Shown in pieces: positions 8,359 to 53,490 of a DNA stretch of 64,000 nucleotides (position 1 is its first letter; every line of letters starts with the position of its first letter). A model generated the notes under the pieces. The model made no database searches, was not told the DNA's origin, and was given only the letters and a program-made list of their open reading frames with translations. This stretch comes from Chromobacterium sp. ATCC 53434 (GTDB taxonomy: Bacteria; Pseudomonadota; Gammaproteobacteria; Burkholderiales; Chromobacteriaceae), in contig NZ_CP025429.1 of assembly GCF_002848345.1 (NCBI RefSeq), positions 4,464,001 through 4,528,000 of the forward strand, read 5' to 3'. Position numbers and translations under genes: made by a program.

Positions 8359-9711
8359 TTACTTGCCTATGCAGAAGCGCGAGAAGATCACGCCCAGCAG
8401 ATCGTCGGCGGAGAAGGCGCCGGTGATCTCGGACAGCGCGTTCTGCGCCATCCGCAATTCCTCGGCGAAGATCTCCACCTGCTCCCAGTCGGCCTCGGCC
8501 AGCTCCAGGTGGTCGGCGGCGCGGGCGATCGCGTCCAGGTGGCGCTGCCGCGCCAGGAACACGCCCTCGTCGGCGCCGCTATAGCCTATCATCTCCAACA
8601 GCTTGGCCTTCAGGATGTCGACGCCGTCGTGGGTGCGGGCCGACAGCCTGACCAGCGGATGGCCGTCCAGCTCCGACAGGCCGGCGGCCTCGCCGGACAG
8701 GTCCACCTTGTTGAAGACCTGCACCCTGGGCAGCGCCGGCGGCAGCCGCTCCAGTATCGCCTGCACCTCGGCGGTCCGGCCCTCGCGGCTGTCCACCAGC
8801 AGCAACGCCAGATCGGCGCGCTCCACCGCCTGCCAGGTGCGCTCTATGCCTATCTTCTCCACCACGTCGTCGGTGTCGCGCAGGCCGGCGGTGTCGATCA
8901 CGTGCACCGGTACGCCGTCGATGACGATCTCCTCGCGCACCGTGTCCCGGGTGGTGCCGGCGATATCGGTGACGATGGCGACGTCGTCGCCGGCCAGCGC
9001 GTTCATCAGGCTGGACTTGCCGACATTGGGCTGGCCCACCAGCACCACGTGCATGCCCTCGCGCAGGATGGCGCCCTGCTTGGCGGTAGCCTGCACGCCG
9101 ACCAGATGGCCGCGCAGCCGCTGCAAGCGGCCCAGCGCGTCGGCCTGCTTCAGGAAGTCTATCTCCTCGTCCGGGAAGTCCAGCGTCGCCTCGACCAGCA
9201 TGCGCAGATTGATCAGCTCGTCCACCAGGCCGTGTACCTCGCGCGAGAACGCGCCCTTCAGCGACTTCAACGCGCTCCTGGCCGCCGTCTCGCTGCTGGC
9301 GTCTATCAGGTCGGCCACGCTTTCGGCCTGGGCCAGGTCCAGCTTGTCGTTGAGGAAGGCCCGCTTGGTGAACTCGCCCGGCTCGGCCAGCCGCGCGCCC
9401 AGCTCCACGCAGCGCGACAGCAGCATCTTCAGCACCACCGGCCCGCCATGGCCCTGCAGCTCGATCACGTCCTCGCCGGTGAAGCTGTTGGGGCCGGGGA
9501 AGAACAGCATCAGGCCGTTGTCCAGCGCCTGGCCCTCGGCGTCGACGAAGTCGGTGTAGGTCGCGTAGCGCGGCTTCGGCGTCTTGCCATTGGAGATGGC
9601 CTGCGCGAACGGCAGCAGGTTCTTGCCGGACACGCGGATCACGCCGACGCCGCCGCGTCCCGGAGCGGTGGCGACGGCGCAGATGGTGGCGGGGGTGTAG
9701 CTGAGATTCAT
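8359..9711 (-). CDS. mnmE: tRNA uridine-5-carboxymethylaminomethyl modification GTPase MnmE
   Basis: 450 residues. With MnmG this K+-activated GTPase makes the cmnm5 modification at tRNA wobble uridine. Visible are the N-terminal tetrahydrofolate-binding segment ([21 protein letters not shown]), the helical domain, the embedded G domain with P-loop [20 protein letters not shown], and NKVD, and the invariant C-terminal CIGK motif carrying the catalytic cysteine. I chose the ATG at 9711 (MNLSYTP) because AAGGA precedes it; an in-frame extension of 18 codons upstream lacks support. It points away from dnaA like yidC. Confidence 0.95.
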
Positions 9712-9897
9712 CGGCATTCCTTGGATGCTTTGCCGCGGACGGCGGGCTGGTACACGGGCGGACATCGGGCATCAAGAGTCGGCATCGCCCCTCTCCCCGG
9801 CCCTCTCCCGCGAGGGGAGAGGGAGGCAGGCCGCCTTGCGCTCATGCTCCGCACCGGCTTCATGCCCGCGGCAAACTGATTTATCTAATTATCCAGC

Positions 9898-9922
9898 AAA
9901 AAACCCGGCCAGTGGCCGGGTT
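9898..9922 (-). terminator. Rho-independent terminator of yidC operon
   Basis: AACCCGGCC and GGCCGGGTT form a stem with a two-base loop (AGT region), and on the minus strand the stem runs into a T-tract. It sits 25 bases past the yidC stop. Confidence 0.88.
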
Positions 9923-9946
9923 CGATCAGCAATTAGGACGGGTCGC

Positions 9947-11569
9947 TTACGACTGCAGCGCGGCCTTGTTGCTGTTGGCGATCTGCTTGTTGATGAACCA
10001 CTGCTGCGCGATCGACAGCACGTTGTTCACCACGTAGTACAGCACCAGGCCGGCCGGGAAGAAGAAGAACAGCGCCGAGAAGGCCAGCGGCATGATCTTC
10101 ATCATCTTCGCCTGCATCGGATCGGCCGGCGGCGGGTTCAGGAAGGTCTGCAGGAACATCGTGGCGGCCATGATGGCCGGCAGGATGTAGTACGGATCCG
10201 GACGGGCCAGGTCGGTATACCACAGCACCCACGGCGCGCCGCGCAGTTCCACCGATGCCAGCAGCGCCCAATAGAGGCCGATGAACACCGGGATCTGGAT
10301 CAGCATCGGCAGGCAGCCGCCCAGCGGATTGACCTTCTCGGTCTTGTACATCTCCATCACCGCCTGCTGGAACTTCATGCGGTCGTCGCCGTACTGCTCC
10401 TTCATCCGCTCCAGACGCGGCGCCAGCGCCTTCATCTTGGCCATCGAACGATAGGAGGCGGCGGTCAGCGGGTAGAACACCGCCTTCACCGTCAGCGTCA
10501 GCAGGATGATGGCCCAACCCCAGTTGCTGACCAGCGCGTGCAGCTTCACCAGCAGCCAGAACAGCGGCGAGGCGAAGATGTAGAACATGCCGAAGTCCTT
10601 GGCATATTCCATGCCGTCGGCCACCTTGGAGATCAGGTTGTACTCTTCCGGACCGGCGTACAGCGGCACCGACACGCTCAGGCTCTTGCCCGGGGCGATG
10701 GCGGCGTAGTCCACCAGCGCGGCGGCGGAATTCAGGCCGCCGGTCTGGCTCAGTTCAAAGCGGCAGGCGCGCTCGTCCTTGCACACGGTCTTGCCGTCCA
10801 GCGGCTTCAGCACCCAGGCGGACAGGAAGTAGTGCTGCACCATCGCCACCCAACCGTCGGTGGTGGTCTTGGCGTAGTCGCCCTTGCCCTTGGCCAGGTC
10901 GTCGAAGCTGACCTTCTGGAACTTGTGCTCGGAGGTGTACACGGCCGGGCCGGTGTAGGTGTGAGCGAAACGGCCCTCACCTTCCGGCGCCTGGCTGTCG
11001 CGCAGCAGGCGGTAGTAGGCCATCGGCGCCACCGGCGTGGTGCCGCCATTGACGATGTCGTAGCGGACGCCGATCTCGTAGCTGCCCTTGTCGAAGGTGT
11101 AGACCTTGCTCACCTTGACGCCGTTGGCGTCCGGCGCGGTCAGCTTCACTTCCAGCTTGTCGCCGTTCAGCTCGTAGCTGGACTTGTCGGCGGTGAAGAC
11201 GGTTTTATGCGTCGGCAGCGCCGGGTTGCTCGCCGCCACCAGGCCGGTCTGGGCCACATAGGTGCGCTTGGCGTCGTCCTCGAACAGCTGGAACGGCTGA
11301 TTGTGGTCTTCGGCGGCGCCGTGCTTCAGCAGCTTCAGCGAACGCAGATCGCCGCCCACGGTATCGATCTCGGCCTCGACCACATCGGTCTTGACGCGAA
11401 TGCGTTGGCCATAAGTCAGCTTGTTGCCGTCAACCGGCTGCGCGGCGCTGGCCGCGGCCTCGGTCTTGGCCGCCTGCTGCTGGGTGTGCTTGGGCATGAA
11501 ATACTCATTCCACCCAAACAGGATGCCCACAGACAGTAGAACAAAGATTATCAGTCGCTTGGAATCCAT
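9947..11569 (-). CDS. yidC: Membrane protein insertase YidC
   Basis: 540 residues. YidC inserts and folds inner-membrane proteins alone or with Sec. An N-terminal signal-anchor ([16 protein letters not shown]) is followed by the large periplasmic beta domain (about 60-340) and the five-helix conserved insertase core ([38 protein letters not shown] with the family arginine-rich hairpin in [21 protein letters not shown]). The ATG at 11569 (MDSKRL) is chosen because it matches the family N-terminus; an ATG 12 codons upstream at 11605 overlaps the end of yidD and is a possible alternative. Part of the rpmH-rnpA-yidD-yidC cluster. Confidence 0.95.
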
Positions 11570-11588
11570 CTTCTCGATACCGGAAAGT

Positions 11589-11798
11589 TCAGGGAACCGG
11601 GTCATAGCCGCTGCCGCCCCAGGGGTGACAACGTCCGATGCGGCGGGCGGCCAGCCAGCCGCCCTTGAGCGCGCCGTGTTTTCTCACCGCCTCGATCGCG
11701 TAGCTGGAACAGGTGGGCTGGAAGCGGCAACGCGGTGCCAGCCACGGGCTGATAGCCAGCTGGTAGAAACGGATCAGGAGGATGAGGATGCGCGACAT
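11589..11798 (-). CDS. yidD: Membrane protein insertion efficiency factor YidD
   Basis: 69 residues with the family signature [20 protein letters not shown] and [14 protein letters not shown]. YidD is a small membrane-associated protein thought to help YidC-dependent insertion. It overlaps rnpA by 25 bases and precedes yidC by 19 bases. Confidence 0.93.
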
Positions 11799-12139
11799 CG
11801 TGCCAGTTTAGCAAACAACGCCTGCAAAGCCGTTACAGCTTCGGCGCGCTGTTCGCGGGTAAACGCCGTCTTGGCGCGCACCACGTAGTCCACGCCGCCC
11901 AGGCCATGCTGATTCAGGCGGAACCACTCGCGCACGCAGCGCTTGATGTAATTGCGTCGCACCGCCCGCTTGGCGACCTTCTTGCCGACCACCAGCCCGA
12001 CACGGGCGTGGTCCAGACCGTTGGCGCGGGCGTACACCTGGAAGAACGCATTGCTGCGCTGCTGCCGCAAACTAAAAACGGATGAGAACTCATCCGTTTT
12101 TAATAGCCGGTACGCACGGCGAAAGCGGTAAGCCGACAA
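11774..12139 (-). CDS. rnpA: Ribonuclease P protein component
   Basis: 121 residues. The protein subunit of RNase P, which matures the 5' end of tRNA. The RNR signature is visible as [18 protein letters not shown], preceded by [11 protein letters not shown] and an N-terminal FSSVF segment. Directly follows rpmH, the standard arrangement, and overlaps yidD. Confidence 0.94.
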
Positions 12140-12143
12140 AGGC

Positions 12144-12278
12144 TTAGACGGCCAGTTGCTTGCGGCCCTTGGCGCGGCGAGCGGCGATGACGCGACGGCC
12201 GCCCTTGGTCTTCATGCGGACCAGGAAGCCGTGGGTGCGTGCGCGACGGGTCTTGGAAGGCTGGTAAGTACGTTTCAT
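12144..12278 (-). CDS. rpmH: 50S ribosomal protein L34
   Basis: 44 residues translated from the minus strand, starting [18 protein letters not shown] and ending RKQLAV; the highly basic composition and sequence are diagnostic of L34. Stop TAA at 12144-12146. First gene of the leftward cluster and immediately next to the origin-side intergenic region. Confidence 0.95.
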
Positions 12279-12608
12279 GATATGGGTTTCCTGTTTCGAA
12301 ACGGAAATAAACGCGTGATTTGACTAGATATTCGTCGCTTTGTCAACGAGGAATTTTCTCCACCCCTGTGGATAACTTTGCAAAAAACCGTTAGAATGTC
12401 TGGGTTTACCGTTGCCGTCCGGCTGCACAACAAATGAACGCCACCAGGGCCGCTGCCCGCCGCGTTCCACCACCGCAGCCTGCCGGCCGCTTCCATGCCG
12501 AATATCCGCCGCCTGCGCGCCTGTTGCGCCAGCGCCGCATGCGGCTCCTCCCGCTGTTGCAAGCCCTGTGCCCGCAGCGGGTTTTTCGCTTTCACTTGCG
12601 TATATGTA
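12279..12608. promoter_or_regulatory. rpmH-dnaA intergenic region, candidate origin
   Basis: A 330-base gap between divergent housekeeping clusters. An AT-richer part (about 12290-12400) contains one perfect DnaA box, TGTGGATAA, at 12367-12375. Genes on either side point away from it, as expected for a replication start. Only one consensus box was found, so classical multi-box oriC structure is not demonstrated; the region also must hold the promoters of rpmH and dnaA. Confidence 0.45.
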
Positions 12609-41168: not shown

Positions 41169-42614
<1,446 letters not shown>

Positions 42615-42644
42615 GAAAAACTCCTTCTGCTCGCGACGCGGCGC

Positions 42645-44306
42645 TCAGCGTTTCAGATACGGGATCACGGTCAGGCCGGCCGGAACCGGGCCCCCGCCGG
42701 CGGACGGGCTGCCCCAGTTGACGAAGCTGCCGTCCTTGGCCACCGCCAGGAAGCCGCCGAGCGCGGTGGCGTAGATCGCGCGGATGTTGCGCAGCTTGGG
42801 CTGCGCCGCCGAGCTGTCGCCGCCGTGAACCGCCGCGCCCCAGCTGACCACGGTGCCGTCCCGCTTCAGCGCGGCGAAGGCATAGTCGTTGGAGAACAGG
42901 GCCACCACATTGTTCAGCTGCGGCTGCACCGCCGAGCTGTCGCCGCCGCGGGTCTCGTCGCCCCAGCTGACCACGGTGCCGTCGCTTCTCAGCGCGGCGA
43001 AGGCCGTCTCGGTGCTGGCCACGGTCAGCACATTATTCAGCTGCGCCTGCACGCTGGCCACATTGTTGCGCTGGGCGTCGCCCCAGCTGACCACGGTGCC
43101 GTCGCGCCTCAGCGCGGCGAAGGCGGTCTTGCTGGCAAACACCTTGGCCACATTGTTCAGCCCGCCGGCGAAGCCGCTCAGATCGGCGCCGCGGTCGAAC
43201 ATGACGCCGCCTATCGTCGACACCACGCCGGTCTGGCTCAGCGCGGCGATCACATTGCGGTTGCTGAGCAGCGACAGATTGGCCTGCGGCATGGTCTGGG
43301 TGGCGGTGTAGAGGTCGTCGCTGTCCCAGTCCAGCCCCCAGCTCACCAGGCTGCCGTCCTTGCGCAGGGCGGTGAAGCTGTAGTCGGTGGAATAGATTTT
43401 CACCACATCGCGCAGCTGGGCCGCCACCGGCGAAACATCACCGCCGGAAACCTCGTCGCCCCAGGCGAACACAGTGCCGTCGCGCTTCAGCGCGGCCGCC
43501 GCGCCTTCGGAATAGCTGACGTCGACCACGTCGCTGAACTGCGCCAGCGTCGTCGGCGTGAAATACGACGACACCGAGGCGCTGCCGCCGTTGCCGTCGA
43601 AAGTCTTCTCCAGATTGCCCCAGGCGGTGGCGCTGCCGTCGCCGTTCAGCGCCACGAAGCCGCGCTTCAGCGCCCAGATATTGCGCACCTTGCTCAGCGG
43701 CGCCACCGGCGCCGTGCTGTCGGCGCTGCCGGCGCCCGGCGTGCCGGCGTAACTGCCGCCGGAGCCGGCGCGGCCCCAGGTCACCACGGTGCCGTCGGCC
43801 TGCAGCGCGGCCCAGGCGCGCTCGCCGCCGACCACCTTGACCACATTGCGCGGCTGCGTCTGCAGCGCCGAGGTATCGCCGCCCAGCCGGCTGCTGCCCC
43901 ATACCGCCAGCGTGCCGTCGGACTTGGCGACGGCGAACACCGACGGCGCGGCGAACACGTTCTGCGCGGCCAGCGTCACCATGGTGCTGAGGTTGCCGCA
44001 GCTGGCGCTGACGGTCAGCGGAGTGGTCGGATCCGGGTCGTCGATGCTGGCGCCGCGCAAGGGGCCGACATGACCGGGGCTGCTCCAGCCGACGGCCAGA
44101 TTGTTCGGGCAGTTGCCGCTGACTGCCGTCAACGTGCCGCCGCGGGCGCCGTACACGTCCACCGACAGGGAGGCGCCGGCGAAGTTGCTGGCGCCGGCGT
44201 TGTCACTGGAGGAGCCGCCTCCTCCTCCGCATCCGGCGAGCGCGCCCGCCAGCCCCAGACTCAGCGCCAATGCGCCGGCGTGCCGGGGCGAATACTTCCT
44301 GATCAT
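42645..44306 (-). CDS. Lipoprotein with RCC1-like repeats
   Basis: 553 residues. The N-terminus is a lipoprotein signal with LAGALAGC (lipid-bearing Cys26), then a glycine/serine linker. The body repeats a unit of about 50 residues of the form TAFAALRRDGTVVSWGD and LNNVVAL, the RCC1/alpha-tubulin-suppressor beta-propeller blade, with roughly seven or more copies. Such propellers usually bind partner proteins; role unknown. The ATG at 44306 is chosen for the signal; a start nine codons upstream exists. It precedes the S8 protease. Confidence 0.88.
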   Translation of the reverse strand: MIRKYSPRHAGALALSLGLAGALAGCGGGGGSSSDNAGASNFAGASLSVDVYGARGGTLTAVSGNCPNNLAVGWSSPGHVGPLRGASIDDPDPTTPLTVSASCGNLSTMVTLAAQNVFAAPSVFAVAKSDGTLAVWGSSRLGGDTSALQTQPRNVVKVVGGERAWAALQADGTVVTWGRAGSGGSYAGTPGAGSADSTAPVAPLSKVRNIWALKRGFVALNGDGSATAWGNLEKTFDGNGGSASVSSYFTPTTLAQFSDVVDVSYSEGAAAALKRDGTVFAWGDEVSGGDVSPVAAQLRDVVKIYSTDYSFTALRKDGSLVSWGLDWDSDDLYTATQTMPQANLSLLSNRNVIAALSQTGVVSTIGGVMFDRGADLSGFAGGLNNVAKVFASKTAFAALRRDGTVVSWGDAQRNNVASVQAQLNNVLTVASTETAFAALRSDGTVVSWGDETRGGDSSAVQPQLNNVVALFSNDYAFAALKRDGTVVSWGAAVHGGDSSAAQPKLRNIRAIYATALGGFLAVAKDGSFVNWGSPSAGGGPVPAGLTVIPYLKR

Positions 44307-44525
44307 CACGTTTCCTTTTCTCTCTTGTAGCACTGCTGTTGTTTATGTTTGTTATTCATGCATTCGGCATGAAAACAAAATTTAACAGTGCGGAAACAAA
44401 AGAGAAAAGTATTTAGCGACAACGCATGCCATCTGTGTATTTTTGCAACAATTTGCCAATTATTTACCGTCATCTTCTAAAACGGAAAACGGCATGATGT
44501 TGCAGGCCGATCGCGCTTTAATGGC

Positions 44526-46682
44526 TCATGTCTTCGACATCCACGACTCCTGCCGCTCATTGACGCCGATCCCGGCCTGATCCTGCACGATCCTGCCCTG
44601 CTCCAGCACCACCACCCGTTCCGCCATCGCGATGGTTTCCGGCCGGTGCGCCACCAGGATGCGCGTCATCTCGATGTCGCGCACCGCGGCGTTGACCAGC
44701 TTCTCGTTCCACACGTCCAGATGACTGGTGGCCTCGTCCAGCACCAGCAGCCTCGGCTGCTTGTACAGCGCCCGCGCCAACAGCACGCGCTGCTTCTGGC
44801 CGCCGGACAGCCCGGAGCCGATGTCGCCGACCAGGGTGTTGTAGTTCATCGGCATCGCCATGATTTCGTCGTGGATGGCGGCCAGCTTGGCGCACTCCTG
44901 CACCCGCGCCGAATCCGGCTGCGGATCGAAGAAGCAGATATTGTCGGAAATGGAGCCGGAGAACAGATGATCGTCCTGCATCACCGTGCCCAGCAGCCTG
45001 CGGTAGTTGGTCAGCCCCAGCTGCCGGAGCGGCACGCCGCCGATCAGGATCTCGCCCTCGGTCGGCTCCATCAGGCCCAGGATCAGTTTCAGCAGCGTGG
45101 TCTTGCCGCAGCCGGAGGTGCCGGTGACGGCCAGGCACTGGCCGGCCGGAATCGCCAGATTGAGCTCCTTCAGCACATAGGGTTCGCCGTCGGAGTAGCG
45201 GAAGGACAGATTGCGCACCTCGATCGCCGGCTGGATGTGAGCCGGGTCGATCTCGACGTCGCTGAGCTCCGGCTCCGCCGCGGTCAGCACGATGTCGGCC
45301 ACCCGCTCGCCGTGCAGCCTCAGCATCCTCAGTTCGAACAGCTTGTCTATCAGCGCGGCGATGCGCTGGCTGAACTGGTCCTTGTAGCTGAGAAAGGCGA
45401 ACAACATGCCGACCGAAAAGCGGTTGTCCATCACCGCCAGCGCCGCCAGCCACACCACGATCACCCGTTCGGCGCCGAACAGCAGCGTGTTGGCGGTCTG
45501 GAACGACAGGTTCAACCGGGCGATGCGCAGATCGGCGTTGAACTGCTCGGCCAGCGCGTTCATCCAGCCTATGCGCCGCTCCTCCTGCCGACCGAACAGC
45601 CGCACGCTCTGCGCGCCGCGCGCCGACTCGATGAAATGGGTGTTCTGCCGCGAGGCGTGGATGATCTGCTCGGCGGTCGCCTCGCGCAAGGAACGGAACA
45701 CGCTCCAGCGCAGCAGCGAGTACAGGGCCACCGCCACCAGGCTGATCGCCGCCAGCGACGGGCTGTACAGCAGCATCACCACCAGCGTGGCGATCACCAG
45801 CAAGCCGTCTATCACCCCCTCGACGAACTGGGTGGTCAGACTACGCTGCATGGTCTGGATCGAACCGAAGCGCGACACGATGTCGCCGAGGTGGCGCTTT
45901 TCGAACCACGGCAGCGGCAAGCGCATCAGATGGGCGAAGGCATTGCCCAGCCACTGGAAATTCAGGCTGGTGGCCAGCGCCGTCGTCGCCCAGGAGCGCA
46001 CCGCGCCTATCAGGGTCTGCAGCAACACCAAGAGCAGGAAGCCTATGCCGAGCACGGTGATCAGGTTGCGGTCGGCCGCCACCAGCGCCTCGTCGACCAC
46101 CCATTGCAGATAGAACGGCGCCGCCAGTGCGCACACCTGCAGCGCGATGCCCAGCAGCAGCAGCTGTCCCAACCCGTTCCCCAGGCCCTCCACCCTCCCC
46201 ATCAGCGACAGCAGGCTGAACTCCAGCTTCTCCTTGGCCTGCTGGAAAGACGCGTCCGGCGACAGCTCCAGCGCCACGCCGGTGAAATGCTTGGACGCCT
46301 CGTCCATCGTCAGCCGGCGCTCGCCTATCGCCGGATCGTGAATGACGATGTGGCGGGCGGCCACCTGCTTCAACACGACGAAGTGGTTCATGTCCCAGTG
46401 CAGCACGCAGGGCAGTTTCAGCTGCGGCAGATGCTGCAGGTCCAGCTTCAGCGGCCGCGACGCCAGGCCCAGGCCCTGGGCCATCGCGATCAGGCTCTTC
46501 AGCGTCGAGCCTTTCAGCGATACCGAGAAGCGGCGGCGCATATTGGCCAGATCGATGTGATGGCCCCAATAGCCGGCCACCATGGCCAGGCTGGCCAGGC
46601 CGCATTCGGCGGCCTCGGTCTGCAGCAGCAGCGGCAGCCTGCGCCGGCCCCAGAATTGCAGCATCGGTTGCTGATGGCTCAT
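44526..46682 (-). CDS. C39-peptidase ABC exporter for double-glycine leader peptides
   Basis: 718 residues of the LagD/CvaB/PCAT type. N-terminal C39 peptidase: Q21 and Cys27 in LLQTEAAECGLASLAMVAG, His100 in HWDMNHFVVL, Asp116 in IHDPAIG, so the protease looks intact. Six membrane helices follow (about 165-430), then the ABC domain with GTSGCGKTTLLKLI, LSGGQKQRVLLARAL and RLLVLDEATSHLD. Such proteins cut precursors after GG and export the mature peptide. One base separates it from the HlyD gene, and the divergent genes encode GG-leader peptides, its likely substrates. No TolC is in the window. Confidence 0.94.
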   Translation of the reverse strand: MSHQQPMLQFWGRRRLPLLLQTEAAECGLASLAMVAGYWGHHIDLANMRRRFSVSLKGSTLKSLIAMAQGLGLASRPLKLDLQHLPQLKLPCVLHWDMNHFVVLKQVAARHIVIHDPAIGERRLTMDEASKHFTGVALELSPDASFQQAKEKLEFSLLSLMGRVEGLGNGLGQLLLLGIALQVCALAAPFYLQWVVDEALVAADRNLITVLGIGFLLLVLLQTLIGAVRSWATTALATSLNFQWLGNAFAHLMRLPLPWFEKRHLGDIVSRFGSIQTMQRSLTTQFVEGVIDGLLVIATLVVMLLYSPSLAAISLVAVALYSLLRWSVFRSLREATAEQIIHASRQNTHFIESARGAQSVRLFGRQEERRIGWMNALAEQFNADLRIARLNLSFQTANTLLFGAERVIVVWLAALAVMDNRFSVGMLFAFLSYKDQFSQRIAALIDKLFELRMLRLHGERVADIVLTAAEPELSDVEIDPAHIQPAIEVRNLSFRYSDGEPYVLKELNLAIPAGQCLAVTGTSGCGKTTLLKLILGLMEPTEGEILIGGVPLRQLGLTNYRRLLGTVMQDDHLFSGSISDNICFFDPQPDSARVQECAKLAAIHDEIMAMPMNYNTLVGDIGSGLSGGQKQRVLLARALYKQPRLLVLDEATSHLDVWNEKLVNAAVRDIEMTRILVAHRPETIAMAERVVVLEQGRIVQDQAGIGVNERQESWMSKT

Positions 46683-46683
46683 C

Positions 46684-47973
46684 TCATGCCTTTCCGCTGA
46701 TGCTGTAGAGCGGCTCCAGCACCCACTCGTACAATTTGCGTTTTTCCAGCAGCACGCTGGCGTCCAGCGCCATGCCCGCCTTCAACGACTGCGTCTGGCC
46801 GTAGGTGGTGACGTTCTGGCGCTCCAGCCTCACCCTGACCCGGTACATCTGCTCGCCGGAACCACCCTGGCCTCCGGGCAGATACAACTCCTCCGGCCGC
46901 AGCGCGCTGCGCGACACCTCGCGCACCGTGCCCTTGAACTGGCCGAACTTCTGATACGGATAGGCCTGGTAGCGGATCAACACCGCCATGCCCGGCTTGA
47001 CGAAGCCGGCGGCGCGCGACGGCGCGTACAGCTCCGCCTCCAGCGGCGAGCCGGCCGGCGACAGATTGGCCAGCGTCTGGCCGGACGACACGGTCTGGCC
47101 GGCCTGGGCGGCGATGCCGCTGACCATGCCGGCCTGCGACGCCCTGACCAGCAGCTTGCGCTTGGCCTCGTTCTCGGTCAGGTCCTGTTCCAGCTCCGCC
47201 ATGCCGCGCTGCGCGGCCGCCTCGTCGCGCTTGGCCTGCAACTGCAGATCGCCCAGGTCGGACAGCGCCGCGTCGTGGTCGCTCTGTACCGCGGCGCAGT
47301 TGCGCTGCAGATCGGCCAGCTTGGTCTGCTGGTCTATCACCTCGGCCTGCTTGTCCTGCAACGCGGCGGCGGAGATGAACTGCGACTCCAGCAGCTTGCG
47401 GTTGCGCTGCAGCGTTTCCTCGGCCAGCGCCACGCGCCGCCGCTGCAGGCCGATCTGCTCGTTCATCCGCTGCAGCTCGGCCGCCAGATCGTCTGCCTTG
47501 CGCCGCAGCGTCTCCTGTTTCTGCCTGGCCTGCATCCGCAGCATCGCCTGGTCGCCGGCCAGGCTGTCGCGCCGCGACTGCAGCAGCGCGGTGATCTCGC
47601 GGCCGGCGTCGCCGCGGGTGGCGCTCTCGCGCTCGTTGCCGAGCACGAACAGCACGTCGCCGGCCCGCACCTGCTGGCCTTCGCGCACCTTGACCTCGGC
47701 CACCACGCCGGATTGCGACGGCTGCACCCGGATCAGCCCCTGGCTGGGCAGCAGCACGCCCGACACCTGGGCCTTGCGGGTATAGCTGGCCAGCACGAAG
47801 AACAGCACGATGGCCACGGCGATCAACGCGAAAACGCCGGTCAGCCAGGCGAGGCTGGCCGGACGCAGCAGCATGATGCGACCATAGCGCCGGTCGGAGG
47901 CATGGGTCAGGGCGGCGGAACGAAAAAGTGACACGGATAGGGCGCCTTCGGTGGACACGCCGCGTCGCAGCAT
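46684..47973 (-). CDS. HlyD-family membrane fusion protein
   Basis: About 429 residues. One membrane helix (WLTGVFALIAVAIVLFFVLA), a lipoyl-like half (SGVVAEVKVREGQQVRAGD), a long coiled-coil hairpin (about 120-270, rich in Q/E/R/L: AAELQRMNEQIGLQRRRVAL), the second lipoyl half and a beta-barrel. It links the ABC exporter to an outer-membrane channel. The start is uncertain: ATG at 47973 and TTG at 47988 both lack good ribosome sites. Confidence 0.88.
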   Translation of the reverse strand: MLRRGVSTEGALSVSLFRSAALTHASDRRYGRIMLLRPASLAWLTGVFALIAVAIVLFFVLASYTRKAQVSGVLLPSQGLIRVQPSQSGVVAEVKVREGQQVRAGDVLFVLGNERESATRGDAGREITALLQSRRDSLAGDQAMLRMQARQKQETLRRKADDLAAELQRMNEQIGLQRRRVALAEETLQRNRKLLESQFISAAALQDKQAEVIDQQTKLADLQRNCAAVQSDHDAALSDLGDLQLQAKRDEAAAQRGMAELEQDLTENEAKRKLLVRASQAGMVSGIAAQAGQTVSSGQTLANLSPAGSPLEAELYAPSRAAGFVKPGMAVLIRYQAYPYQKFGQFKGTVREVSRSALRPEELYLPGGQGGSGEQMYRVRVRLERQNVTTYGQTQSLKAGMALDASVLLEKRKLYEWVLEPLYSISGKA

Positions 47974-48434
47974 GCGGAGGTTCGACAATCTACCATTAAA
48001 GCCAATGTCATTTTAAGTGGCAACTGTCGCGACATATGCATTTGCGCGCATCCCGGTCCGGCACGCGTCCATGCATCCTCTTTCCTTCTTTAAATTCCGA
48101 TCGCCGATCGTCTGCGTGGCACACTGTCTGTTAGGACAGTTCAAGCGCCGTCATTTCGGACACTTTCCGCCGACGCCATCGACGACAGGCAAGCTGGGCA
48201 AGGCTCGCTGACTTGTTGCGGGATACAGACAACCCGCCCCCATTCCGCCGCCACGGCTGATTCGTAGTCATCCGAGTTGTTCCTCCATTGATACCGTCCA
48301 ATAGTGCACTGTCATCGATGGAATTATCCAATCCAGTCCAATCAATCAGCCACAACCAGGCTGCGCAGCTTCCATCCGGTGACGCGTCCGGGCCGCCAAT
48401 CGACGGCCCTCACACCAGCGTAAGGAGAAGCAAA
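47974..48434. promoter_or_regulatory. Divergent control region of the peptide/exporter locus
   Basis: About 460 bases between the HlyD gene and the first precursor gene. A perfect dyad, ACTGTC (48123-48128) and GACAGT (48135-48140) with a six-base spacer, is a candidate regulator site. Short frames here have no ribosome site or similarity and are not called. AAGGAG precedes the precursor ATG. Confidence 0.5.
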
Positions 48435-48596
48435 ATGCAAACCGACAAGCAAGTGGAACAGGTCGAACAGGACGACCAGGAAATCGCCGACATCCTCGGC
48501 ATCACCGTCCTGTCCCCGCTGGAAGAAAGCGCGGTCAGCGGCGGGCTGGAGCCCGTCCACACCGACGAAGACCACGTCCACGTTCACCCGAGCTAG
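48435..48596 (+). CDS. Double-glycine leader precursor peptide 1
   Basis: 53 residues. Leader residues 1-37 end DILGITVLSPLEESAVSGG, an acidic leader with a GG at 36-37, which is the cleavage pattern of C39 peptidases; the predicted core is LEPVHTDEDHVHVHPS (38-53). The leader matches precursor 2 (IxDxLGxxVLxPxEExxVSGG). AAGGAG is at ideal distance. The core is acidic and histidine-rich and has an alternating HVHVH run. It is the first gene of the unit containing oxygenases 1 and 2. Confidence 0.85.
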   Translation: MQTDKQVEQVEQDDQEIADILGITVLSPLEESAVSGGLEPVHTDEDHVHVHPS

Positions 48597-48625
48597 GCCG
48601 GTCTTCCCGCCCCTGAGCCAGCATC

Positions 48626-48660
48626 AGGCGCCCGGCTCCGCCTGGAGTCCGGGCGTGCCT
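48626..48660 (+). repeat. GC-rich stem-loop after precursor 1
   Basis: CGCCCGG (48629-48635) pairs with CCGGGCG (48649-48655), extended by AGG/CCT. No T-tract follows; it could reduce read-through from the precursor gene into the oxygenase genes or protect the precursor mRNA end. Confidence 0.5.
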
Positions 48661-48705
48661 CATCGCTCGCCGCACGCCCAGCGACCACTTCGGAGAATCC
48701 ATTCG

Positions 48706-49983
48706 ATGGACAAGCACACCCCAAGCTTCAGCGACGCATGGTGGGATGGTTTTCTGCACGAATCCCGGCATCTGAACAATCCGGTCGTGTTCAAGGGCGC
48801 GCTCGACGAGAGCCGGGTCGCCGCCTTCCGGCAAGCGGTGCTGGAGTTGCTGGCCACGCGGGCCGGCCTGCGGCAAAGCCCCTACGGTTTTCGCGTATAC
48901 GCGGCCGGCCGGCTGTTGAACCGCGACGAACTGGAACGCTTCTACGACTGCCCGCCCCAGGCTGGAGAAAGCCTGGAGGCATGGGGCGAGCGGGCGTTTC
49001 CCGGCACGCCGTACGGCATCATTCTCAATGCCGGAGAGAAATTCCATCACGAGCTTTCGCGCGAGATCGCGCTGATGCTGGCGCCGCTGTTCCAGAAAAT
49101 CGGCCTGCCGCGGGACGGCGTCCAGTTCAGCATCTTCATCGGCAATTACGACAAGACGCCGCTGGGCATACACCAGGACCTTCGCGGCGAAAACGTCATC
49201 CACTTCCATGTCGGCCCCGGCGCCAAGACCATGTATCTGTGGGAGCCGGAACGCTACCGCCGGCTGACCGAGGAGGAGGGGATCACCAAACGCGACTTCG
49301 CCGCGCTGAAACCGCACGCCCGAACTTTCCATTTCGAGGCCGGTGACCTGTTTTTCATGCCGGAAGGCACTTTCCACATCGGCGCACAGGACGAGTTGTC
49401 GATCGGCATCACCGTCTGGCAATACACCCACAGCAACCAGGCGATGTTCAAGAACCTGCACGCCTTCCTGCTCAAACAGCTGGACGGCGAGCCGGACGAC
49501 GCCATCGTCCACGACCCGTCGCCGCCGGACGACGGTGGCGCGCTGGAACCGATTCTCTCCGCTCGCCGGCTGCCGGAGGAGTACCGAGGCCGGGACTATG
49601 ACCAGCTGATGCGCCTGGCCTACCTGGACTGGCGCCACTGCCTGGCCAGCAACGCCGGCTACCGCAGCCCGCCGTTCCCGCGGGAAAAAGAGGAAAACCT
49701 GACGCCCGCCGACTGGGTGCGCGCGGAAACGCCGTACCGCATCCTGACGCGCGAAACGATGCCGGGGCGGATGGCCGTCTACGTGCGCGGCAACAAGCTG
49801 GAAATGAACCGCCACCCCGGCCTGATCGCGATGCTGGACCGGCTGAACCAGGGCCGGAGCTGCGCCGTCGCCGAACTGCTGGGCCTGCTGGACCCGCGCT
49901 GGCCGGCCAAGGTGGGCCTGCATCTGCTGAACGAGCTGTTCCACTGGCGCGGCGTCCTCAAGACCGACCCGCCGTCGAACTGA
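48706..49983 (+). CDS. JmjC/cupin-fold oxygenase-like protein 1 (candidate RiPP hydroxylase)
   Basis: 425 residues. The double-stranded beta-helix metal triad is GIHQD (H156, D158) and TFHIG (H224), with a basic residue in GPGAKTMYLW (K174) positioned like the 2-oxoglutarate-binding lysine of JmjC proteins. The C-terminal about 120 residues (VYVRGNKLEMNRHPGLIAML, ELLGLLDPRWPAKVGLHLL) resemble the winged-helix tail of YcfD/RoxA-type JmjC hydroxylases. It should therefore be an Fe(II)/2OG hydroxylase; its likely substrate is a precursor peptide of this locus. ATG at 48706 is chosen for GGAGA upstream. Two paralogs follow at 50015 and 51865. Confidence 0.72.
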   Translation: MDKHTPSFSDAWWDGFLHESRHLNNPVVFKGALDESRVAAFRQAVLELLATRAGLRQSPYGFRVYAAGRLLNRDELERFYDCPPQAGESLEAWGERAFPGTPYGIILNAGEKFHHELSREIALMLAPLFQKIGLPRDGVQFSIFIGNYDKTPLGIHQDLRGENVIHFHVGPGAKTMYLWEPERYRRLTEEEGITKRDFAALKPHARTFHFEAGDLFFMPEGTFHIGAQDELSIGITVWQYTHSNQAMFKNLHAFLLKQLDGEPDDAIVHDPSPPDDGGALEPILSARRLPEEYRGRDYDQLMRLAYLDWRHCLASNAGYRSPPFPREKEENLTPADWVRAETPYRILTRETMPGRMAVYVRGNKLEMNRHPGLIAMLDRLNQGRSCAVAELLGLLDPRWPAKVGLHLLNELFHWRGVLKTDPPSN

Positions 49984-50014
49984 GCCTTCGCCAACCCCAG
50001 CCAGGGAGCCCGGC

Positions 50015-51316
50015 ATGCACCATTTCCGCGAGAGCGACACGATAGAGAATCCCCTCGCTCCGGCCCGCCTGCGTCGGCAATTCGACGCCGGCTGGTGGAC
50101 CGATTTTCTCGCCCACAGCGAGCAGATGAGCCGGCCCTGCGTCTTCGCCGACGCGCTGGACGCCGGCCAGGCGCGCCTGATGCGCCGCCAGGTGCTGGAC
50201 ATCCTGGCCGAGCTAGGCCAGACGCACAAGGCGAAATACGGTTACCGCCTGTGGCTGGACGGCCGGCAGGTCGACGAGCTCGACGAGCACTTCGCCCTGC
50301 ATCCGCTGCCGCACGAGGAGGTGGAAGACTGGGTGGGCCGCGCCTTCGGCGAACGCAAGTTCGGCATCATCCTGAACCGCGGCGAGAAGTTCAGCCCCGG
50401 CCTGTCCCAGGCGATCGCGCTCATAATGGAGCCGGCGCTGAAGATGATAGGCATGCCGACCGAGGGCATTCTGTTCACGGTGTTCATCGGCAACTACGAC
50501 ATGACGCCGCTGGGCATACACAAGGACTCGCCCGGCAAGAGCGTGATCCATTTCCACCTTGGACCGGGGCCGAAGACCATGTACACCTGGCGCGACGACG
50601 ACTACGTCACCGCGCCCGGCGAGAAGCGCTGCAACAACATGAATATCGCCCCCCACCTGCCCAGCGCCGCGCACCATGCCTTCGGCGCGGGCCAGCTCTA
50701 CTTCATGCCGGAAAACATGTTCCATCTGGGCATGCAGGACGAGCTGTCCATCGGCATCGCCTGCTGGTTCTACAACCGCTCCGATCACGATTTCGCCTGC
50801 GAGCTGCTGCACCGCGTCCGGGAAGCCCACCTGCGCCCGTCCGAGCGCATGCTGAAAGCCGACCGGCGGCCGGTGGACGACATCGCGACCGTCGAATCGG
50901 CGCTGTCGTTGCTGGCGCTGCCCGGCGGCGGCGATCTGCGCGCGCTGATGCGCGACGTCTACCGCGACCTGCGCTACTCGCTGTTCAGCAACGCCGGCTA
51001 CCGCAACAGCCCGGTGCCGCGCGAGGACAAGCCCGAGATGCGGCCGGACAGCCGCGTCGTCGCCGAGGCGCCGTACCGGATGCTGTGCCGCCCGGCCGAC
51101 GAGGCCGGCCGGCTGGCGCTCTATGTGCGCGGCACCAAGATCGCGCTCGGCAATTTCCCGGGGCTGGAAGCCATAGTCGACCGGCTGAACGGCGGCGGCA
51201 AATTCGCCGTCGAGGACATCGTCGCCATGGTCGACGATCCGCTGGCGGAGAAGAAGGTCCGCTATCTGCTAGGCCTGCTGCACCGTTACCGCGGCATCGC
51301 CGTCACGCCGCGCTGA
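50015..51316 (+). CDS. JmjC/cupin-fold oxygenase-like protein 2
   Basis: 433 residues, a diverged paralog of the 48706 protein with the same architecture: WWTDFLAHSEQMSRPCVFAD, metal triad GIHKD (H169, D171) and MFHLG (H237), K187 in GPGPKTMYTW, and the C-terminal winged-helix-like part (LYVRGTKIALGNFPGLEAIV). HxD...H is kept although Gln is replaced by Lys in the middle. It begins 31 bases after oxygenase 1 and is followed by a terminator, so it ends the first unit. Confidence 0.72.
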   Translation: MHHFRESDTIENPLAPARLRRQFDAGWWTDFLAHSEQMSRPCVFADALDAGQARLMRRQVLDILAELGQTHKAKYGYRLWLDGRQVDELDEHFALHPLPHEEVEDWVGRAFGERKFGIILNRGEKFSPGLSQAIALIMEPALKMIGMPTEGILFTVFIGNYDMTPLGIHKDSPGKSVIHFHLGPGPKTMYTWRDDDYVTAPGEKRCNNMNIAPHLPSAAHHAFGAGQLYFMPENMFHLGMQDELSIGIACWFYNRSDHDFACELLHRVREAHLRPSERMLKADRRPVDDIATVESALSLLALPGGGDLRALMRDVYRDLRYSLFSNAGYRNSPVPREDKPEMRPDSRVVAEAPYRMLCRPADEAGRLALYVRGTKIALGNFPGLEAIVDRLNGGGKFAVEDIVAMVDDPLAEKKVRYLLGLLHRYRGIAVTPR

Positions 51317-51360
51317 GCGGCGCGACGACCATCCCGTCCTTCCCGACCACCCCATTCGGC

Positions 51361-51387
51361 TCGCCGCGCATGCGGCGATTATTTTTA
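51361..51387 (+). terminator. Rho-independent terminator after oxygenase 2
   Basis: TCGCCGC (51361-51367) pairs with GCGGCGA (51372-51378) around GCAT, followed by TTATTTTTATT. Confidence 0.85.
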
Positions 51388-51395
51388 TTATTTAT

Positions 51396-51424
51396 TTGAC
51401 ATTTTTTACTGTATTACCTATGAC
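51396..51424 (+). promoter_or_regulatory. Sigma-70-type promoter of the precursor 2 unit
   Basis: TTGACA at 51396-51401 and TATGAC at 51419-51424, 17 bases apart, in an AT-rich island directly after the terminator. The predicted transcript has a 5' leader of about 140 bases with two small hairpins (GCTGCC/GGCAGC near 51473-51489 and CCGCC/GGCGG near 51506-51519). Confidence 0.7.
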
Positions 51425-51570
51425 AAATAGTGCTGCGGATCATATCAGCAAAAACAAAGCGACAGGACGCCGGCTGCCAGCGCGGCAGCAAGCGACACGG
51501 AATGACCGCCCTCGGGCGGCAACGGCAAGGGCTGACCGTATTTTCAGCCCGCACACATAGAGGAAAAACC

Positions 51571-51714
51571 ATGACCAACGAAAAACAGCTTGCTCAAGAA
51601 CAAGACATCCAGGACTTTCTCGGCATGAAGGTTTTGACCCCGGCGGAAGAAGCCGACGTATCCGGCGGCAAGGTCACGGTTACCGTGACGGTTACCGTCA
51701 CCGTCTCCGAGTAA
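51571..51714 (+). CDS. Double-glycine leader precursor peptide 2 with Val-Thr repeat core
   Basis: 47 residues. The leader ends DFLGMKVLTPAEEADVSGG (GG at 32-33). The predicted core, KVTVTVTVTVTVSE, is an almost pure alternation of Val and Thr, encoded by a 12-bp repeat (51673-51708). Such a core would favour a beta strand with all Thr side chains on one face; hydroxylation of Val or Thr by the neighbouring oxygenases is a natural hypothesis. AGAGGAAAA precedes the ATG; upstream in-frame codons lie in the leader RNA and are not counted. Confidence 0.85.
   Translation: MTNEKQLAQEQDIQDFLGMKVLTPAEEADVSGGKVTVTVTVTVTVSE
51673..51708 (+). repeat. 12-bp tandem repeat encoding VTVT units
   Basis: Three imperfect units: GTCACGGTTACC (51673), GTGACGGTTACC (51685), GTCACCGTCTCC (51697), each translating to VTVT or VTVS. 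Slippage or unequal exchange could change core length in steps of four residues without shifting the frame. Confidence 0.9.
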
Positions 51715-51764
51715 GCTCCGCGAGCTTCTCGACCGGCCACGGCGTCCAAGCGGGCACCGTGGCC

Positions 51765-51801
51765 ATGCTGCGGCACAAGCGCCTTGTGCCGCAGCATTTT
51801 T
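51765..51801 (+). terminator. Strong terminator between precursor 2 and oxygenase 3
   Basis: ATGCTGCGGCACAAG (51765-51779) pairs perfectly over 15 bp with CTTGTGCCGCAGCAT (51783-51797) around CGC, followed by TTTT. It lies 50 bases after the precursor stop and 64 before the oxygenase 3 ATG, so oxygenase 3 would be made from read-through or a separate promoter, giving excess peptide over enzyme. Confidence 0.9.
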
Positions 51802-51864
51802 ACCGGCGCGCGCGCCGCCGGCGATATCGAACAACCCGTTTCCATACCCCCGGGACGAACGGTC

Positions 51865-53142
51865 ATGACGACAAGCATCACCGCCAGAGATGGCGACACT
51901 TTCGGACGCGCCTGGTGGCGGGACTTCATCGACCGGACCGATTCGCTGAGCCAGCCCATCGTGATCAGGGACCTGTTCCCGGCGGAACGGCTGGACTTCT
52001 ATACCCGCAAGGTGCTGGAGGTACTCGCCACCGTCAAAACCACCCAATACGGCTATCGAGCGTTCGTCGACGGCCGCCAGTTGGGGCCGGCGGACATGGA
52101 GGACTTGTTCAAAAAGGTCCCGGAGGACGATGAAACGCTGGAAGCCTGGGCGCAGCGGGCATTCGACGGCAGGAACTTCGGCATCATCCTGAACAACAGC
52201 GACAAATTCAACGAAGCGCTGGCCAGCGACGTCGCCAGCTCGCTGGCGCCGTTCTTCGCCGAGATCGGCCATCCGCGCGGCGGCGTCCAGACCACGATCT
52301 TCATCGGCAACTACGACCAGACCCCGATCGGCATCCATCAGGACGATCGCGGCGAAAGCGTGCTGCATTTCCATGTCGGCCCGGCCGACAAGACCATGTA
52401 TGTCTGGGACAAGGACGAATACGAGGCGCTGCTGAAGGACAAGAACTGGACCAAGAAGGACGTCGAGGCGCTGAAACCCTACGCGCGCGCCTATTCCTTC
52501 AGCGCCGGCGATCTGTACTACATGCCGGAAGGCACCTACCACCTCGGCGAGCAGGACGGGCTGTCGATAGGCATCACGATCTGGACCTACTGCCATACCG
52601 ACGATCTGTTGGTGCAGAACCTGCACCAGCAGATGCTGAAGCAGATACCGGTCAAGAAAACCCCGGACTTCCATCACGACAACCGCCCGCTGGACGACAC
52701 CAGCGGCCTGGACGACATCGTCAGGAAATACGCCGTCACCGACGAATGCAAGCATCTGAATTACGGCGACCTGCTCAGGGCGGCCTACCAGGACTGGCGC
52801 TACGGCATACACAGCAACGGCGGCTACCGCAACAAGCCTATGCCGCGCGCCGACGACGACAAGGCCGATTTTCAGCCCGGCGACCTGCTCCGGCTGGAGG
52901 CCCCGTACCGGATACTGATACGCGAATCGATCGCCACCGAGAAGATGTATCTCTACGTCCGCTGCGAAAAGATCGAGTTCCGCTATTTCGCCTGCCTGAT
53001 CCCGTTCATCGAACGCATCAACCGCGGCGAAGCCGTCCGCGTCGACGCGCTGCTGGCGCTGCTGGATCCAAGCTGGCCACCGCGCATCGGGCTGCACCTG
53101 TTGAACGAGTTGTACCGCTGCCGGGGCGTGGCCAAGCTCTAA
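51865..53142 (+). CDS. JmjC/cupin-fold oxygenase-like protein 3
   Basis: 425 residues, third paralog: WWRDFIDRTDSLSQPIVIRD, metal triad GIHQD (H158, D160) and TYHLG (H226), K176 in GPADKTMYVW, and the C-terminal winged-helix-like region. It is closer in motif to oxygenase 1 (both GIHQDxRGE) than to 2. The ATG at 51865 is chosen because the family start is MTTSITARDG... with WW at residues 17-18; upstream codons belong to the terminator region. The TAA stop is shared with the border of the MITE-like element. Confidence 0.72.
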   Translation: MTTSITARDGDTFGRAWWRDFIDRTDSLSQPIVIRDLFPAERLDFYTRKVLEVLATVKTTQYGYRAFVDGRQLGPADMEDLFKKVPEDDETLEAWAQRAFDGRNFGIILNNSDKFNEALASDVASSLAPFFAEIGHPRGGVQTTIFIGNYDQTPIGIHQDDRGESVLHFHVGPADKTMYVWDKDEYEALLKDKNWTKKDVEALKPYARAYSFSAGDLYYMPEGTYHLGEQDGLSIGITIWTYCHTDDLLVQNLHQQMLKQIPVKKTPDFHHDNRPLDDTSGLDDIVRKYAVTDECKHLNYGDLLRAAYQDWRYGIHSNGGYRNKPMPRADDDKADFQPGDLLRLEAPYRILIRESIATEKMYLYVRCEKIEFRYFACLIPFIERINRGEAVRVDALLALLDPSWPPRIGLHLLNELYRCRGVAKL

Positions 53143-53319
53143 GAGCCTGTTTACGATCTTTTTACGAGCAGCGCAGGCCAGCCCTTCGGGACGGTTTTCT
53201 GCCGGCGCATGGCTTTGTCAAACGTCCCTTGCAGTGAGCGACACTGCCGCGGGCCGTTTTTCGTGCCCTGCATCCGGCAGAATACCGTCGATGCCGCAAA
53301 AAGATCGTAAACAGGCTCT
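53142..53319. mobile_element. MITE-like element with perfect 22-bp terminal inverted repeats
   Basis: The left end starts AGAGCCTGTTTACGATC at 53142 and is mirrored perfectly over 22 bases by the right end 53298-53319. The element is about 178 bp and has no coding sequence. TAA occurs at both borders (53140-53142 and 53319-53321), suggesting a three-base target duplication of TNA as made by some IS5-family groups; this makes the functional element 53143-53318. The left TAA is the oxygenase 3 stop codon. Confidence 0.82.
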
Positions 53320-53490
53320 AAGCGCCTGTTCTCAAGGCGTTTTGAGAATGGGCAGTTGGAGCCGGCTCCCTGTGTGGAGGGACCTCCGAACAAAGGGGGA
53401 AAGGGTGGCAAGCATTTTCGGTTCAAATGTCCGCCAATGTCCAAGGACTTGCGTTGAGAGCGCCTGTAAGTCGCCGCCAGCAACGCACCG

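Follow-up and report, generated by a model that had tools for sequence, protein, structure and literature searches.

Gene content of the Chromobacterium locus

We analysed a window of 64,000 nucleotides from the genome of Chromobacterium sp. ATCC 53434 (NZ_CP025429.1, positions 4,464,001 to 4,528,000; coordinates below are those of the window), in which two short peptides with double-glycine (GG) leaders, three paralogous candidate oxygenases and an exporter with a C39 peptidase domain lie close together. The exporter genes (44526-47988, minus strand) are divergent from two plus-strand modules, the first comprising a His/Asp-rich peptide (peptide 1) and the enzymes E1 and E2, and the second a Val-Thr peptide (peptide 2) and the enzyme E3. 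An initial annotation, made from the letters of the sequence, had read this region as a candidate pathway for ribosomally synthesized and post-translationally modified peptides (RiPPs), and every component it listed was found. The interval it assigned, 46684..53142, takes in the peptides, the oxygenases and the HlyD gene but leaves the C39 gene (44526-46682) outside. Its description of one locus is apt insofar as the components are clustered, but the peptides head two separate modules, a layout that fits its further suggestion that the oxygenases act on different precursors.

Module 1 begins with the 53-aa precursor peptide 1 (48435-48596), whose open reading frame (ORF) has a Shine-Dalgarno-like AAGGAGA 5' of it; the leader (48435-48545) ends in AVSGG and the core (48546-48593) reads LEPVHTDEDHVHVHPS. 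It is followed by E1 (425 aa, 48706-49983, the start being assigned to the ATG at 48706), with a predicted JmjC fold and a C-terminal domain resembling RiPP recognition elements (RREs), and by E2 (433 aa, 50015-51316), the second JmjC-fold protein of this module. A terminator-like stem with a T-rich tail (51361-51378, plus strand) lies between the modules, a weak signal in a stretch with six such sites as against 5.1 in shuffles. In module 2 the 47-aa precursor peptide 2 (51571-51714), with AGAGGAAA 5' of its ORF, has a leader (51571-51669) ending in DVSGG and the core KVTVTVTVTVTVSE (51670-51711), and precedes E3 (425 aa, 51865-53142). The two cores bear out the products forecast by the initial annotation, a Val-Thr repeat and a His/Asp-rich peptide. 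The leaders, which it had called near-identical, are only similar, 14 of their last 26 residues being the same, and that description was dropped. The three enzymes are 38-45% identical to each other when compared directly. In a search of the single-contig 5.14-Mb genome with E3 they are the sole matches at E<=0.001, E1 at 46% and E2 at 39% identity.

On the opposite strand, the 718-aa exporter (44526-46682) combines an N-terminal C39 peptidase domain carrying the motif ECG (Pfam Peptidase_C39, 8.4e-35) with ABC_membrane and ABC_tran domains. The adjoining gene (46684-47988) encodes a HlyD-type membrane fusion protein (Pfam HlyD_3, 4.9e-19; NCBIfam type_I_hlyD, 146 bits against a cut-off of 209). 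No immunity gene was recognised by eye among the listed ORFs of the window.

The predicted JmjC-type oxygenases and their C-terminal domain

A protein search with E3, in which the best 7990 candidates by common words were scored, returned 112 proteins. From these a family alignment of 40 sequences (37 search matches and the three window enzymes) was chosen on sequence and source, blind to gene context. E1, E2 and E3 all align GIH(Q/K)D, K and H with the metal- and 2-oxoglutarate (2OG)-binding positions of JmjC domains. In E3 these correspond to H158 and D160 (52336-52344), the 2OG lysine K176 (52390-52392) and H226 (52540-52542). Of 92 long relatives in the alignment, 91 keep H158, K176 and H226, and position 160 is Asp in 89 of the 92 and Glu in three; family rows that were short or scored low are not part of this count. 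The H-x-D...H triad and the lysine at the 2OG position postulated by the initial annotation are thus retained well beyond the three window enzymes.

General family models recover these proteins poorly. All three fall below the Pfam gathering cut-offs for JmjC_2 and Cupin_8 (E1 scores 22.8 against 27.4 for Cupin_8 and 15 against 22 for JmjC_2, and E3 scores 13.6 for JmjC_2), E2 matches no Pfam family at E<=1, and JmjC_2 is reached at E<=0.01 by 11 of the 40 members of the family alignment. PHROGs and PADLOC yielded nothing useful for the enzymes, E3 having one weak match to a PHROG of unknown function; the PADLOC matches of the exporter fall within its ATPase part. The family profile had no match at E<=1 among solved structures, ribosomal oxygenases included, and a sequence search with E1 against the same structures gave merely weak matches to oxalate decarboxylase, at E about 0.1. 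Fold comparison was the only informative route. The model of E3 (predicted local distance difference test score, pLDDT, 92.7) contains the double-stranded beta-helix of the JmjC fold and can be aligned over its full length with ribosomal oxygenases, whose architecture of JmjC, helical and winged-helix parts it reproduces. The 2OG-oxygenase site, for which the initial annotation had proposed structure prediction as a check, is accordingly recovered both in the conserved residues and in the predicted fold and architecture, which supports the prediction that E1-E3 are JmjC-fold Fe(II)/2OG oxygenases.

The C-terminal domain of E3 (52876-53139), which the initial annotation does not mention, was modelled on its own (pLDDT 95.9); it has a fold resembling known RREs, and its structural matches include MINA53, ThcOx, BmdC, McbBCD, MccB and the PbtF RRE. 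The corresponding domain of ribosomal oxygenases is usually described as a winged helix, and the domain in E3 might likewise be a winged helix with a role other than leader binding. We regard this as unlikely: the order of strands and helices is bbb-aaa, RiPP enzymes make up a large share of the Foldseek list, and PMC12710340 describes proteins in which an annotated JmjC domain is joined to an RRE-like fold, with bacterial homologues in RiPP-like contexts.

Leaders, cores and exporters across genomes

A scan of contigs with the family alignment, by enzyme sequence alone, led from 171 pattern-matching stretches, through 79 encoding a relative, to 74 loci in Chromobacterium, Paucibacter, Massilia and many Bacteroidota and, more distantly, in Photorhabdus and other Proteobacteria. 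With the window included, a split at 340 bits, chosen after the scores were seen, separates 48 close-relative loci (Chromobacterium, Paucibacter and Bacteroidota) from 27 distant ones. Peptide 2 as a single query matched nothing except itself. Ten peptides, taken from nine of the loci, served as seeds for a leader profile, which was then iterated (consensus xxxxNxKxFLGxKxLSPLExxxxxGG; peptides 1 and 2, both among the seeds, score 1e-8 and 2e-8). This profile identifies a precursor in 39 of the 48 close loci, and the number rises to 43 with four read by eye: 38 were obtained through the profile itself, L014 through a whole-genome match beside an assembly gap, and L037, L042, L043 and L045 by eye from short ORFs. 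The last four have no whole-genome leader match at E<=0.01, and in L037, L043 and L045 the precursor is located 3' of the enzyme. The five close loci without a precursor are L012 and L046 (contig starting at the enzyme gene), L050 (a 4.1-kb contig), L047 (broken frames) and L048, for which there is no comparable explanation. In L047, from Massilia, the oxygenase gene is split over several short overlapping frames (9689-12468), either by assembly error or by decay. The leader type is absent from all 27 distant loci.

The catalogue comprises 60 peptides, of which the profile supplied 56 and reading by eye four. For the 42 modules whose precursor lies upstream and no more than 6 kb away, distances were measured from the start of the precursor to the first possible start of the enzyme ORF, and 40 of them are 146-664 bp. 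The two outlying values are a hand-entered placeholder (L014, 692) and a first ORF called too far upstream (L008, 1591). An extra GG peptide (MKNQSLQTMLDELGEE...FVSGG) lies directly after the second enzyme in L005 (7504-7677) and L009 (12688-12861), and a peptide resembling it occurs next to the L114 exporter, in a genome that lacks JmjC relatives.

Since the leader profile recovers its own seeds by construction, searches of whole genomes of the genus and of Bacteroidota are the informative evidence. Among 19 genomes of the genus the leader occurs in eight, all with the enzyme; nine genomes have an enzyme, the ninth having the distant type only, and none of the ten enzyme-free genomes has a leader match. 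The 34 Bacteroidota genomes gave 45 leader matches at E<=0.01 (in 29 of the 34), all of them at JmjC loci. Of these matches 44 are inside the position ranges of known loci, and the 45th is beside a further JmjC gene, representing a previously unseen second locus of one genome. This check compared positions and not contig names, left the L030 genome out of 35 named loci, and set aside as weak 12 of 57 matches at E<=0.5 that had E>0.01. In a survey of 399 genomes from the order, the leader turned up in the window genome and, as a weak match (E 0.008 over 12 residues), at one other place; five of these genomes have the enzyme, four of them at 29-190 bits. The recurrence of this leader type beside close relatives of the enzyme, in 43 of 48 loci, confirms that the association of peptide and enzyme is more than chance, and the test set beforehand, that unrelated genomes should combine the leader with an oxygenase and an exporter, is borne out over two phyla.

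Most cores are of low complexity, with runs of 7-17 Gln, KEKEKEKEKEK, KVKVKVKIK, VTVTVTVTVTV, VVRVVRVVQQVQ, HHHDHD or CKCKCKCK. Their minimum 12-residue entropy was compared with that of equally long segments of neighbouring proteins: 48 of 60 cores are under the 5% point of these segments and 35 of 60 under the 1% point, while 12 are not distinct from them in complexity (the L014 core was omitted from this count). The cores contain no Trp, 0.1% Tyr and 1% Cys. Repeats are written in mixed codons (GTC, GTT and GTG for Val, ACG and ACC for Thr), and an origin as DNA microsatellites was ruled out on the mixed codons in most of 15 cores examined, L033 with its single Lys codon being different. 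Core type follows enzyme clade, with eight changes against a mean of 21.7 and a minimum of 17 in 2000 shuffles, taking one row per module and assigning core types by a simple letter rule. In a quick tree E2 groups with the second enzymes of loci with His-rich cores, Chitinophaga included. Chromobacterium, Paucibacter and Chitinophaga all have two-enzyme modules with such cores. One of the Chitinophaga enzymes falls in the E1/E3 clade and the other in the E2 clade, and within the E3 clade cores alternate between Gln-rich and Val-Thr types. A caution applies to any reading of this pattern as adaptation of enzyme to core, as common descent would also be expected to produce the core-clade signal, which makes it weak evidence of co-adaptation.

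A C39-peptidase ABC gene is present within 8 kb in 42 of the 48 close loci, and the D/E-C-G motif is kept in all 42 of these exporters (35 by pattern, seven by reading). The six loci without one include the 4.1-kb contig L050 and the 4.8-kb contig L025, and in the L004-type genome a close exporter is about 10 kb away (L117). A universal pairing of HlyD and C39 genes was ruled out: relatives of the window HlyD occur in seven loci only (the window, L005-L009 and L037), and four other loci have a different HlyD-like gene below the Pfam cut-off. HlyD is not a general component of the locus, and in the window it is likely the partner of the exporter. Within the genus, exporters 77-100% identical to that of the window occur in 12 of 19 genomes, among them all eight with the leader. 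Three of the 12 lack a JmjC relative and have other GG-type short ORFs nearby, which rules out an exporter dedicated to these peptides. The earlier proposal that the transporter accounts for the peptides stands in that a C39-ABC gene is at the locus, but not in any exclusive sense. The other GG-type short ORFs are at L114 11879-12061, L115 14059-14456 and L116 5892-6107, all from genomes without a JmjC relative, and at L117 7947-8186.

These exporter sites with GG-type ORFs and no JmjC gene bear on a different explanation, namely that the peptides serve without modification as GG-type bacteriocins or signals and that the neighbouring oxygenases act elsewhere, for instance on a ribosomal protein. 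C39 exporters commonly carry unmodified GG peptides, and the nearest full-length folds of the enzymes are indeed ribosomal oxygenases. Against this, leader type and enzyme co-vary in both the genus and the Bacteroidota genomes, core type tracks enzyme clade, two-enzyme modules with His-rich cores recur in three genera, and the C-terminal domain of the enzyme resembles RREs. We therefore consider this explanation improbable; genomic context points to the GG peptides rather than a ribosomal protein as the substrate.

Several accessory genes recur at these loci. Bacteroidota loci often add an outer-membrane barrel gene (27 of the 48 close loci), a representative of which matches OMP_b-brl_3. A family of small proteins (98-143 aa) is encoded near the JmjC gene in 14 loci (L013, L014, L015, L016, L017, L020, L022, L024, L029, L035, L038, L042, L044 and, weakly at 2e-5, L045). 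By eye, eight of the 14 have a signal- or lipoprotein-like N-terminus, and the family is a candidate immunity or accessory protein. ThiF-family and N-acyltransferase-like genes (the latter with a weak FeeM match below cut-off) occur in L029, L030, L031, L032, L035, L038 and, by eye, L112 (12235-14591), making further tailoring possible.

Two of the three JmjC-free exporter regions share with the window the next genes, labelled by eye as ntrC, a sensor kinase and parC; from these shared flanks it is possible that the exporter region is a site at which peptide cassettes may be swapped. Beyond the exporter in the window (41169-44333) are ORFs that we named by eye as a subtilisin-like protease and an RCC1-repeat-like protein, neither of which had a tblastn match at E<=1e-15 in the four genus exporter regions L114-L117. 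Abutting the stop codon of E3 is an element of about 190 bp (53133-53328) resembling a miniature inverted-repeat transposable element, with 34-nt terminal inverted repeats that are 88% complementary. It has at least 111 matches in the genome, many of them partial, and at least 40 of 109 bp or more, the window copy included; these are lower bounds, 40 of 97 candidates having been scored.

At distant JmjC loci from Photorhabdus, Photobacterium and a Neisseriaceae, we observed short ORFs of a different kind (L057 9616-9762, L059 4847-5002, L065 9487-9735, L066 9582-9725, L068 9666-9812 and L070 9595-9735). They contain a stretch similar to DLGLEVVED, which reads DLDIEVVES in L068 and DLGLEILED in L057, and most of them have an RPVRHIR-like tail as well. 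Several of these loci also carry an arginase-family gene and a Cupin_8 gene. This looks like a second RiPP type, perhaps one in which Arg is converted to ornithine and then to hydroxy-ornithine.

Proposed pathway and known systems

We favour, with a probability of roughly three in four, the reading that these loci represent a RiPP class whose oxygenase, a JmjC-RRE protein guided by the leader, oxidises the repeated side chains of the core, with C39 cleavage and export as later steps. The window locus would make two RiPPs, each from a precursor that joins a conserved, GG-terminated leader to a low-complexity core. As fold and linkage suggest, the leader would be bound by the RRE-like C-terminal domain of the oxygenase, with the JmjC active site working along the repeated core, most likely to add hydroxyls at several places, +16 Da each. 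E1 and E2 would act on the His/Asp-rich peptide 1 and E3 on the Val-Thr peptide 2. The common C39-ABC/HlyD exporter would then cut after GG and secrete the product.

Hydroxylation is the likeliest chemistry because BipG, the JmjC enzyme of a RiPP pathway (biphenomycin), hydroxylates ornithine at the gamma position (PMC12707348), and because alpha-ketoglutarate (alpha-KG) enzymes, rare in RiPPs, are described in PMC12636437 as largely confined to hydroxylation, a Cys-Tyr cross-link being one exception. That exception, together with the PosC/PflC enzymes, which both hydroxylate and cleave, raises the alternative that the same pathway performs other chemistry, such as cross-linking, desaturation or oxidative cleavage, or yields a ligand-rich metal-binding peptide, as the H/D-rich and CKCKCK cores could bind metal. 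For most cores the scarcity of Tyr and Cys excludes a Cys-Tyr cross-link, and the repeats appear best suited to hydroxylation at many sites, so that we think other chemistry has a minor, if real, chance of being correct.

More tentatively, and with somewhat less confidence than an even bet would imply, we suggest a new RiPP class of Bacteroidota and Betaproteobacteria. Its leader-guided JmjC-RRE oxygenases, which have the architecture of ribosomal oxygenases and probably a common ancestry with them, would act processively on near-homopolymers (poly-Gln, KEKE, KVKV, VTVT, His/Asp), and the secreted oligomers would be densely hydroxylated; YcfD, NO66 and MINA53 would then have a relict RRE as their winged helix. 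The presumed substrates are unusual, as natural peptides composed of little beyond Gln, Val-Thr, Lys-Glu or Lys-Val repeats, and the enzymes are a candidate set for hydroxylating repeat peptides. Among the questions they open are the way in which homopolymers are handled by a 2OG oxygenase, a possible common origin of RiPP enzymes and ribosomal oxygenases in leader binding, and the extracellular function of polyhydroxylated low-complexity peptides.

In comparison with known systems, the ribosomal oxygenases (YcfD/RoxA, NO66 and MINA53) match the window family in domain order, from the JmjC barrel through a helical middle part to a winged-helix/RRE-like domain at the C-terminus, and in the HxD...H motif with its lysine. 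The window family differs in having no profile match to solved structures and in being encoded beside a GG-leader peptide and usually a C39 exporter. BipG is alike as a JmjC oxygenase hydroxylating a side chain of a RiPP precursor, but its target is ornithine made from Arg (PMC12707348), which both window cores lack, a distinction drawn from description and not from sequence. PMC12636437 presents PosC/PflC of Pseudomonas as alpha-KG-dependent hydroxylases of Gln runs in a RiPP precursor, a precedent for poly-Gln hydroxylation; in contrast to the window enzymes they are HEXXH enzymes of another family, their leader resembles nitrile-hydratase-like leaders and their clusters are described as having no protease gene. 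NHLP-type exporters (TIGR03796, NHLM_micro_ABC1) similarly join a C39 peptidase with its catalytic Cys motif to an ABC transporter, whereas the window exporter scores 501 bits against their cut-off of 853 and goes with a short leader. The initial annotation knew of no RiPP class built on these components. We found no description of the leader, cores or gene set in the open full-text papers of PubMed Central, which leave out most subscription papers, but the fusion of JmjC and RRE had already been noticed in PMC12710340, which places an RRE-like domain on JmjC proteins in RiPP-like contexts; the section concerned describes neither a class of precursors nor leader motifs or types of core. The loci described here thus apparently constitute an undescribed RiPP family or class, assembled from known RRE and JmjC parts.

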